A model generated the notes under the pieces. It made no database searches and had not been told where the DNA came from. It worked only from the letters and a program-made list of their open reading frames with translations. A DNA stretch of 64,000 nucleotides from Cristatella mucedo (lineage: Eukaryota; Bryozoa; Phylactolaemata; Cristatellidae): contig WPIO01000020.1 of NCBI GenBank assembly GCA_009760855.2, positions 4,785,501 to 4,849,500 on the forward strand, given 5' to 3'. Within the stretch, counting starts at the first letter, position 1. The number at the start of each line of letters is the position of its first letter. This document shows positions 9,901 to 40,765 of the stretch, in pieces. Made by a program: the position numbers and the translations under genes.

Positions 9901-12900
9901 CCCCGTCCGGCAAGGGAGGTTGTGATGGCATAAGCTATTCTGCTGCTAAGGCAGTTAATCGGCTTCTTGTTTTTACTTTACTTCCCAGACATCACCTACA
10001 AGACTGCTACTCGACTATTGACGTTTGGCTGTGTCAGAGCAAGCCGTAAATATTTTGGAGATCATAGCTTCAGCTCCTGTGCACCTAAAACCTAGTACTC
10101 TTTGCTGACTGACTTTCCAACATATCCTGACTGCAGTTCTTTTTTAAAAAAAAAAAGCTAAAACCCCTCCTATATCTCACAGCAGTTTCACCCACCCTTG
10201 TGAATCATCTATAGTGTGCTCATGTGCCCTGCATTGTATGCGTTTTAATCACTCACAATTTGTTTTCCTTTATTTTTAGCCTATGTAAAGTGTTAACAAT
10301 TTAGTTACTTTAGGGTGATACAACTGTATTACTATTATTATTATTATTATTACTGCTACTACTGGTATTTTGCATCGTGATCAAAGCCTGCTCGGTGGTT
10401 GATTTTAAGTTTTGTATGTGTTTAAGTGTCGTATGTCTCACTTAGTTATTTTTGAACCTGTGAACCTTCTCCAGCATTTACTGTAAACCATCAAATTATT
10501 TCGACAGTCTTTCTACGTTTGCCAAACTCTTTGGGATATAGATTACACTAAGCTTCAAAAAAATCCTTGCATTGTGGCCAACATTGCCCCGGCTGTAAAT
10601 TCGTTCAAGTAAAATAAGAGGGTTTTTTATGATCCCAGGCAAACTAAAGTTATGAGTAGCATGAGAAAATATTTGTTGACTGCCAAAAACAAGCACATAT
10701 GCAGTTGGTATGCATGGGTTGAGTATGAGCTCATCCTATCGTGATTCCTGTTTACCTCTCTTGTCTGGCCAACCACAGAGGCCACAAGCTTTGAGATTTT
10801 CTCTTCTGCAGAAGAACAGTCTACAGACTGAATTGAACTGAAAATGTTGACCTCTGATGTAGGCCTCAGCTCCCTGTCGATATCGCTCTATAGTTGTTCT
10901 ATATAGTTGAGGTTAGGCGACTGGCTAGGCCTCTAAATTAGCACCACAGAAGGATTTATCCAAAAAAAGGAACCTCACCGGCCCAGCAGTGTGCATGTGG
11001 TGGTTATCTTGCTGCCAAATGTAGCGATCCAGCAGAGTATTTTACCTTTGAAATCCAATTTGCTTCACTAATAATAACTTGGGTTACATACGTTTTTGAC
11101 GGATAATTGTTTGGTGCCGATGCAGTCTGCTAGCCTGTTGGTTTATTTGAACTCCTTGGAATAACTATGGAACAATATCGACTGGCAGCTGATGCAGAGT
11201 TCTGGGCATACATCAGTATCCGGTGTTTATTTAAGTGAAGTGAATTTCAGGCTATTCAGAGGTTGTTTACAGCAGAAGAGAAAGTGCAGAGGCTGATAGC
11301 TTGAATGCCTTGCCATCCAAGTTTGTTAAAAAAAAAAGAATCGTGGGTGGAAAAGCATACATAACTGCACCATGTGAGCTGGTTAGGTCTAGCGGTTAAG
11401 GTGCTCGCCCCGACCAAGGTCTGACTGAGGTCGTGGGCTCGAGCCCCGAGGCATATGTGAAGCGCCTGAATAAAGATTAAGTTCTCTTGGGGCGCTATAT
11501 AAATGAATTATATTCTTTTTAAATTATATATGCGATTTCAATATTTTCTAACGTTCAGCATAACTTAGGTATGTGTGGCGTCATAATATAACTCATTACC
11601 TGAACAAACATAGAGCCACGAAAGCTTCGGTACTCATACTGCAAATGCTTTTTTACATTGAATTGCTGAATTTATATTTGCTAGCTGGCTATGGTATGCT
11701 CTCTGCAGCATGATTGCCTGTGTGTGTTGATCTATGGCAATGTGTTGTGGCTGTCCCATGCCCAACACACCTTCAGCAAGTTCTGTTTTTGTTTGTTTTC
11801 TCGGTATGCATTATCATTTGGTTCAATTTTTGCTCGATGTCTGAAGTCTACCTATCTTATCGATACAAACTAGTGTTCTTTCTTGACCATGCTTTATGTA
11901 CGGTTATCATTTGATGAGCATTTATCCTCGGCTGACGTCTAGCCGCAGATGAATTACTATCCAAGGTTGAATGTAGTGGCTCTTTTTGGTTTCAATAGTA
12001 TGGTATTTTGCCAGCCGTGGTTGTGCTGGTTCGAGCTCTGATATGTTGGCTACGTTCCTGACTTGGGTGTGCATCGCAAACTGGCAGGTGCCATTGGAAG
12101 ACCAGTCACAATCCGGCGACCCGGATAGCATATGTGGCCTGATGTATCGGCCACATTTTCTCAAAATCTCAGGTGATAGAGTCGTTATCGTGAACATCGA
12201 TGTGAGATAATCGTCTTACACAATTGATGCCTTTTTTGTAGGCACCCAATGGCAACTCAGCTGTAGTGCCTGCCAGCCGAGCCATTTCGGCAGCTGCCAT
12301 AGCTGCGCACACTAATCGACTTGGTAGCACAGGTATGCTGCTGCCGTGCACTGCATTTACTGAAGGCCTTCTGACAGGCTGCTCGGTGGTTCCTACCTAT
12401 GCTAGCTGTTCTCGAAGCTGCCTACTTTACTGGCTACTGTGGTCAACTCCCAGTGTGACCATTCTTGCAATAAAGACCAGGGATTGGGCCTTTGCTGTGA
12501 GCAGCACACTTGGTTTTCGGCAGTCAAATCATGAGCTCGAGATTAGCTTACGTGGGCTGGCTTGCAAGACGGTCACTATTCGAGCCACCTTTCTAGACCT
12601 GCTATCCTCAGTCAGAGCATTCCATTAGCTAAGCGCCCTGGAGCTATGCACCAGTAGTGTGCACCAATGGGCCCAGGTATGCACTCCGAGATGCTAAATC
12701 CTCGTATTTTGGCGATTCTAACTACAAGGTTTCCTACTTCACAAGCGAGCAATGAAGGACTGTGACCCAGGTGAACCATCCCCTTGTATTATTTCAAAAG
12801 ACAAATCACAGAAAAGGATGCTGCCATACCTAAAAATTGCTGCTAAACCAGCATTCAGGTTTAGTGAGGGATTTCTTGATGCTAAAGTAATTACCATGTG

Positions 12901-39382: not shown

Positions 39383-40765
39383 GTTTTGCTTGATCTTTCG
39401 GCAGCTTTTGATACCATCGATCACAAAGTTCTTCTAGAGCGCCTCTCATCTCGCCTGGGCATCACTGGCACTGCTCTGCAGTGGTTCACGTCCTATCTCA
39501 GTGGGAGACTCCAGAGTATTGACGTGAATGGACAAAGATCATCTGAAGTACCTCTGAAATATGGAGTACCTCAGAGCTCAGTGCTAGGTCCGGTTCTTTT
39601 CACGGTTTATACTCTGCCTCTTGCTGATGTGATTGCCAAGCACAATCTAGGCTTTCACTTCTATGCGGATGACACTCAGTTGTACCTTTGCTTTGATCCC
39701 TCCCAGCCTTCGAGCACCTCAAATTCTCTAAACTCACTAGCTGCATGCATTGATGACATCCGCACATGGATGGCAACAAATTTTCTAAAACTTAACGATG
39801 ATAAAACTAACTTACTAGTTATGGGCAAACCCAGTGTGATCCAGAGATTGGAAAGGCTGACTCTCAAAATTGGCTCTGCCAGCATATCTCCTGTCGAATC
39901 AGCTTGGAATCTAGGTGTCATATTCCAAAGCGACCTCTCGTTAGACGACCGTATCAGCTCCACAGTAAAATCCGCCTATTTTCAGCTTCATAGCATTGCT
40001 ACAATTCGGGCTTGTTTAGATAAGGATACCACGTCCAAGTTAGTTCATGCATTCGTGACATCTCGTCTCGACTTCTGCAACTCAGTGCTTACTGGCCTAC
40101 CAGCATGTGCGATCAGGCGATTGCAGCTTGTGCAAAACTCTGCAGCTAGGCTTGTCTGTCGTGAGCGTCGCAGTTGCCACATTACTCCACTTCTCGCCGA
40201 CCTGCACTGGCTACCAGTCAAGCAACGGATTGACTTCAAGGTTTTGTCGCTCACTTTTAGGTCCCTTCATTCTATGGCTCCAGCCTATCTGTCAGATATA
40301 CTACCCCATCAGGCCAAGCATCGTACCACCCGCTTTTCGGAATCCAACAGTCTAGAAATACCTCATACAAACCTTAAATCCTTTGGAGACCGTGCATTTA
40401 GTTCATATGCTCCCAAAGCCTGGAACTCCCTCCCGACCTGCGTCAAAACATCCCCTGACCTGACCACATTTAAAAGGAACCTAAAAACACACCTATTTAG
40501 GAGAGCATTTACTGGGTCCCTGTGATTCGTCTTTGACGTGGTTATGCGTGCTGACACTGTGCATGCTGCCACTAACCACATTCGCATGCTGACCCTGTGC
40601 ATGTCACCCCTAACCATACATATTATTCATCTCGCTTGTTTTTCAAGCATGATTTTACTTACCATTCAATTGCATTTCCCTTTGCAGCAAATGTAAAGCG
40701 CCCAGAGAGAGATTGAGTTCTCTGAGGGCGCTTTATCAAGTGAATTATTATTATTATTATTATTA
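39383..40765 (+). mobile_element. LINE-A retrotransposon, best-preserved copy (5'-truncated)
   Basis: L2/CR1-like non-LTR element. The frame is closed by TGA at 39377, so the copy starts inside the reverse transcriptase, at LLDLSAAFDTIDHKVLLERL (first catalytic Asp). It stays open for 379 codons to 40525. Motifs: GVPQSSVLGPVLF, FHFYADDTQLYLCFD (YADD pair), WMATNFLKLNDDKTNLLVMG, WNLGVIFQSDLSLDD, then the thumb and tail LDFCNSVLTGLP, RRLQLVQNSAARLVCRERRS, LHWLPVKQRIDF and AWNSLPTCVKTSPDLTTFKR, ending FTGSL. The 235-bp 3' UTR ends in a hairpin (about 40693-40731) and (ATT)n to 40765. No endonuclease part or ORF1 is present. Confidence 0.96.
40693..40731 (+). promoter_or_regulatory. LINE-A 3' terminal stem-loop
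   Basis: agcgcccagaga pairs with tctctgagggcgct, with a 2-base bulge and a loop of about 10 bases (gagattgagt). It sits directly before the (ATT)n tail. In L2/CR1-type LINEs a 3' stem-loop is the recognition site of the element's reverse transcriptase. The pairing is seen here; the role is inferred. Confidence 0.7.

Follow-up and report, generated by a model that had tools for sequence, protein, structure and literature searches.

Long interspersed nuclear elements (LINEs) that need a specific hairpin at their 3' end, and short interspersed nuclear elements (SINEs) that carry such a hairpin, are well described (PMC4176376, PMC3747384), and in the survey reported in PMC3747384, 58 SINEs share their 3' end with a partner LINE. 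For fish L2 LINEs the hairpin is described as required for retrotransposition and as bound by ORF2, and for zebrafish L2-clade LINEs the loop is described as giving specificity, with the stem needed in general (PMC4176376). Here we describe a candidate pair of this kind, SINE-A and LINE-A, in 64,000 nucleotides of the bryozoan Cristatella mucedo (contig WPIO01000020.1, positions 4,785,501 to 4,849,500 of the forward strand). This whole stretch is called the window below, and positions are counted from its first letter.

We read SINE-A and LINE-A as a stringent-type SINE/LINE pair in which the SINE would borrow the copying machinery of the LINE, and give this reading a probability of roughly 0.85. 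As part of it, SINE-A would be a non-autonomous retroposon, about 140 bases long and composed of a head, probably derived from transfer RNA (tRNA) and of RNA-polymerase-III type, and a captured LINE-A 3' end. The reading is directly supported by the common descent of the two tails, the predicted hairpin that they share, the linkage of one tail to a reverse-transcriptase frame, the absence of LINE similarity in the SINE head and the overlapping divergence of the two families.

The tail shared by SINE-A and LINE-A

Judged from their sequences, the tails of SINE-A and LINE-A, about 65 bases long, are of common descent. The SINE-A and young LINE-A consensus tails are identical at 57 of 63 aligned bases and align with a score of 76, where 500 dinucleotide shuffles gave at most 27. 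Eight single LINE-A copies score between 38 and 66 against the SINE-A tail, and alignment of single copies across the two families gives E 6.8e-10. With a covariance model built from eight LINE tails, four of the nine SINE tails come out below E 0.01, those at 55397, 2396, 11446 and 59450 (the four E values being 5.8e-8, 9.2e-8, 1.7e-6 and 0.002), and the remaining five have E values from 0.037 to 5.6. The reciprocal model, built from the nine SINE tails, recovers every one of the eight LINE tails with E no higher than 2e-5. The 16-base core AGAGATTNAGTTCTCT has 22 matches in the window with up to three mismatches (shuffle mean 2.32; 22 reached by none of 100 shuffles), 19 of them tail copies by our reading. 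Within SINE-A the homology begins at about 11451, some 10 bases ahead of the hairpin.

The window holds three near-full-length SINE-A copies of 140 bases, one more diverged copy and five that are older and partly shortened:

11376-11515, forward strand: SINE-A copy; A-box-like motif at 11385-11401, B-box-like motif at 11435-11446, LINE-like tail from about 11451, hairpin at 11461-11496
2401-2540, reverse strand: SINE-A copy; hairpin at 2420-2455, its outer arm with a paired two-sided change from C-G to A-U
55327-55466, forward strand: SINE-A copy; hairpin at 55412-55447
59455-59593, reverse strand: more diverged SINE-A copy; tail kept, hairpin decayed (fold z -0.36)
22025-22190, reverse strand: older SINE-A copy; head with an additional stretch
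43190-43310, reverse strand: older SINE-A copy
190-304, forward strand: older SINE-A copy
24990-25106, forward strand: older SINE-A copy
22284-22390, reverse strand: older SINE-A copy

LINE-A and its tails are found at the following positions:

39380-40765, forward strand: longest LINE-A copy; open frame 39380-40525, 3' untranslated region 40526-40765, hairpin 40697-40732, terminal ATT repeats
44193-44866, forward strand: 5'-truncated LINE-A copy; hairpin 44798-44833, frame from 44193, protein similarity to the LINE open reading frame from 44283
37954-38804, reverse strand: 5'-truncated LINE-A copy; hairpin 37984-38019
45995-46711, reverse strand: LINE-A copy of an older subfamily; hairpin 46025-46060
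13053-13512, reverse strand: 3' part of a LINE-A copy
39102-39184, reverse strand: strongly truncated LINE-A copy, tail only
20792-20879, reverse strand: strongly truncated LINE-A copy, tail only
6026-6177, forward strand: older LINE-A copy, 3' untranslated region and tail
61346-61421, reverse strand: LINE-type tail, assigned to neither LINE-A nor SINE-A; its post-hairpin bases (GCTATACAAA) are SINE-like

The preliminary description had proposed that several copies of both families share a tail within the window, and the nine SINE and eight LINE tails of our joint alignment, more than it listed, agree with this, as does the alignment of the consensus tails beyond the ATT run, within the window. 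Its places and strands were right, but the strings that it quoted are composites, since no copy has all three strings of its family: the first SINE string is confined to 55412 and the second to 11479, the third occurs at 288, 55448 and 2405 (reverse strand), and the first two LINE strings correspond to 44798-44833 (the first also to 38002, reverse strand) and the third to 40733. Words from the tail sequences had no match in the literature text searched, a result of little weight, sequences being mostly shown in figures.

Left out of the joint alignment were the microsatellite-expanded tail at 17460, the unassigned tail at 61395 and two weaker tails, at 43924 and 26831, that were seen later. 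At 17370-17500 on the forward strand the AG-rich inner arm of a tail copy has expanded into a long AG repeat, apparently a microsatellite born from the hairpin. The tail at 43924-43991, also on the forward strand, is a hairpin whose inner arm is shortened and which has ATT repeats (E 0.015 by the LINE-tail model).

The two families overlap in divergence, as far as few copies can tell. The three young SINE copies differ pairwise by 0.086-0.121 and five LINE-A copies by 0.079-0.146; within SINE-A the value rises to 0.448 when old copies are included, which differ from the young ones by 26 to 40 percent.

The predicted hairpin and the bases that differ between the families

The hairpin proper spans 36 bases (11461-11496, 2420-2455 on the reverse strand, 55412-55447, 40697-40732 and 44798-44833). 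Both consensus tails are predicted to fold into an outer arm of seven pairs, an inner arm of five and a loop of six bases, at -22.2 and -22.4 kcal/mol, with AGCGCC/GGCGCU in the outer arm, AGAGA/UCUCU in the inner arm and UURAGU as the terminal loop. When copies were folded singly (four of the nine SINE and all eight LINE), 7 of the 12, three SINE and four LINE, had a z of -2 or lower. The earlier claim that both families fold with AGCGCC/GGCGCT and AGAGA/TCTCT arms thus stands for the consensus sequences but not for every copy, the one at 2399 on the reverse strand having agAgcc/ggcTct.

Arms and terminal loop are largely common to SINE-A and LINE-A, and the shared terminal loop fits the loop-given specificity described for zebrafish L2-clade LINEs (PMC4176376). 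A complete or near-complete split between the families is seen mainly at columns 23, 24, 26 and 45, in the internal loop, and at columns 59 and 60, behind the hairpin; at columns 14, 18, 36 and 54 the families differ in their commonest base only. In the joint alignment 87.3 percent of the cells at paired positions hold standard pairs, compared with 37.7-61.9 percent for slid partners. Two-sided changes are confined to three cells in the 17 sequences, all of them SINE: S2540 (C-G to A-U), and S214 and S22369 (both G-C to A-U); the LINE-only alignment has none.

The head of SINE-A

The head shows no similarity to the LINE-A body (39380-40690), its alignment score being 15 against a shuffle mean of 16.7. 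An A-box-like pattern is exact in two young SINE-A copies, the third differing from it by one mismatch. It matches nine times in the window (2.59 expected; nine reached by 1 of 100 shuffles), and five of these matches lie inside SINE-A copies. The B-box-like pattern GGGCTCGAGCCC, derived from SINE-A itself, shows 0, 0 and 2 mismatches across the three young copies and matches eight times in the window (1.57 expected), seven of these inside SINE-A copies. Among nine human tRNAs, Leu-CAG matched the head best and was equalled by 1 of 1000 mononucleotide shuffles; Leu-AAG (4 per 1000), Gly-GCC (5) and Ser-GCT (16) followed, and the rest were weaker.

These box motifs and tRNA comparisons suggest, weakly, that a tRNA origin of the head is likely. 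The preliminary description had called the part of SINE-A outside the tail tRNA-like and unrelated to the LINE; the second half of that statement is borne out, and the first leans on the box motifs and the tRNA comparisons. Two Rfam matches to bacterial RNAs (E 0.55 and 0.46) were rejected as chance, being far under the gathering scores.

The coding part of LINE-A

A reverse transcriptase of the non-long-terminal-repeat type (39380-40525) lies upstream of the tail at 40682-40765 and in the same direction. Its frame matches RVT_1 at E 2.2e-16 over profile positions 72-193 of 205; it starts within the reverse-transcriptase domain and codes for the later two thirds of it and a downstream part. 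It is followed by a 3' untranslated region of 240 bases that ends in the hairpin and then in ATT repeats. The best matches of the LINE-A protein in PDB are L1 ORF2 and R2 proteins. The element is a candidate member of the L2/CR1 clade of LINEs. Neither the protein nor the tail pattern had matches in the viral contig collection.

Outside the window, a search of a genome contig collection gave one relative, a frame for a 1051-residue endonuclease/reverse-transcriptase protein (L001, PIVJ01000154.1) that is 52 percent identical to LINE-A over the LINE-A piece. A search of the window with this protein by tblastn gave 14 pieces at E 0.01, all from residue 667 onwards, and the residues before 667 had no match in the window at that threshold, so that every LINE piece detected in this way is 5'-truncated. 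The frame itself (L001:3-3158) is uninterrupted, with Exo_endo_phos and RVT_1 domains, and its contig, filed as a Bacteroidetes metagenome-assembled genome, is most likely mis-binned eukaryotic DNA. The stretch of APW... type between its endonuclease and reverse transcriptase is a possible counterpart of the L2 LINE tail-binding region, and the contig carries no such tail as that described here (best E 0.83).

Other LINEs in the window

Two further LINEs were compared with the SINE-A tail:

31306-32390, forward strand; 49948-50441, reverse strand; 47411-47965, reverse strand: LINE-B, ending in ACATT repeats
26209-26905, forward strand: LINE-C, an older relative of LINE-A, about 67 percent identical in the coding part; its tail is similar in kind but decayed

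LINE-B, whose protein is 47 percent identical to that of LINE-A over the compared piece, was rejected as a better partner, its ends scoring 24, 24 and 19 (shuffle maxima 23 and 29, and 25 for the third) against 76 for LINE-A. It shares with the SINE-A tail only the 12 bases GCGCTATACAAA, a match close to chance level and about 90 bases ahead of its own end, and of two copies folded one is no better than shuffles (z 1.29) and the other modestly better (z -1.71). The end of LINE-C scores 21 against the SINE-A tail; its own tail is a weak match to the LINE model (E 0.86) and folds no better than shuffles. Among the LINE ends examined in the window, none therefore matches SINE-A better than LINE-A does, a point on which the preliminary description might have failed.

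Proposed mechanism and alternative explanations

If SINE-A and LINE-A form a pair, SINE-A would be transcribed by polymerase III, and the most likely end of its RNA is the hairpin carried by LINE-A RNA. The LINE-A reverse transcriptase would recognise and bind this hairpin and start target-primed reverse transcription on the SINE RNA as on its own, which would mobilise SINE-A in trans.

Several findings weigh against this reading. The ends of the two tails differ, SINE-A terminating in ATTATATT with T runs and LINE-A in ATT repeats instead, as do the bases that follow the hairpin (ATACAAATG in SINE-A, TTATCAAGTG in young LINE-A). Five of the 12 single-copy folds are no better than shuffles (z -0.36 to -1.58). 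Compensatory changes, which the preliminary description had raised, do not exceed those in shuffles: column shuffles give 87.0 percent paired cells and reach the observed value in 246 of 500 cases, hence no statistical covariation, and none was found above shuffles in three alignments or with a longer basal stem. A result of this sort would be expected of dead genomic copies. Exact target-site duplications, the only kind searched for, did not exceed chance in the five SINE copies tested (4-5 bases, as in shuffles). Rfam found no tRNA in three SINE-A copies and ARAGORN none anywhere in the window. Finally, no LINE endonuclease or endonuclease-to-reverse-transcriptase stretch was found in the window, and hence no tail-binding region (cTBR/vTBR) was seen.

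The alternative that survives best, to which we grant a real though minority chance, is that SINE-A was mobilised by a sister lineage of LINE-A and not by the young LINE-A of the window; an older LINE within that line would have supplied the captured tail, which has since evolved apart. The post-hairpin ATACAAATG of SINE-A resembles TATACAAA in the diverged tail at 61346-61421 and ATACAAATGTATT of LINE-C (26831) more than it does young LINE-A, the internal-loop bases of the two families overlap little, and the SINE-A tail is itself old, to judge from the distance between old and young copies. Over the whole tail, however, the young LINE-A consensus remains the best match, and older LINE copies score lower, though decay alone could explain the latter. 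From the post-hairpin bases we infer that the SINE-A tail probably goes back to, or has been maintained alongside, an older LINE-A branch.

More tentatively still, SINE-A and LINE-A may be tail lineages that have long run in parallel, the protein-bound arms and the terminal loop being held in common and the internal loop having drifted (GAAT with T in one, AGAA with G in the other). Should this doubtful proposal be true, the pair would reveal which parts of the hairpin were read, and which ignored, by one LINE protein over a long joint activity.

It is improbable that SINE-A is an internally deleted LINE (SIDE), its head then not being foreign. CR1 LINEs are described as having short derivatives with deletions (PMC6740152), and no 5' part of LINE-A was seen in the window, so that the head could have come from the LINE 5' end; yet the head scores no better than shuffles against 39380-40690 and carries A-box-like and B-box-like motifs. 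Even less probable is a transfer of the 3' end in the opposite sense, from the SINE to the LINE: the direction is unreadable from tail identity alone, but the related and much older LINE-C ends in a decayed tail of like kind. This points to a long history of the tail on the LINE side, although the model match of LINE-C is weak and its fold no better than shuffles, as given above. Chance or convergence of simple hairpins, with short arms, one of them AG-rich, and with GCGCTATACAAA recurring in LINE-B where no clear homology surrounds it, is refuted for SINE-A and LINE-A by the shuffle scores and the reciprocal covariance-model matches, and by identity running through the terminal loop and both hairpin flanks.

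Surroundings

Part of a DHHC palmitoyltransferase gene (6825-7367, forward strand; PF01529, E 5.4e-19) fits an animal genome. The G+C fraction is 0.63 at 56001-60000 and 0.39-0.55 in the remaining 4-kb bins of the window.

Comparison with known systems

SINE-A and LINE-A would add one more SINE/LINE pair, with both partners inside one 64-kb stretch. The pair alters no principle; such pairs let RNA recognition by LINE proteins be read from natural variants. The hairpin sequence of the eel UnaL2 and zebrafish ZfL2 LINEs presumably differs from that of SINE-A and LINE-A. V-SINEs have a conserved central domain. SINE-A, unlike them, apparently consists of head and tail only, no more than about 5-10 bases lying between its B-box region and the LINE tail. 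A tRNA head joined to a LINE-type tail is described for V-SINEs (HE1 with HER1; DANA with CR1-3DR/ZfL3; PMC3747384) and is otherwise the probable layout of SINE-A. Compared by description, SINE-A also resembles sea urchin SINE2-8_SP with L2-1_SP/CR1-3_SP and sea anemone Nve-Nin-DC-SINE-1 with L2-22_NV, in which a tRNA-type SINE carries the 3' end of a LINE of the CR1/L2 group (PMC3747384).

Eel UnaL2 with UnaSINE1/2, and zebrafish ZfL2-1 and ZfL2-2, are described as sharing a hairpin 3' tail between SINE and LINE (PMC4176376, PMC3747384), as SINE-A and LINE-A do. Unlike those systems, the Cristatella pair is known from sequence alone, and its LINE tail ends in ATT repeats, its SINE tail in ATATT.

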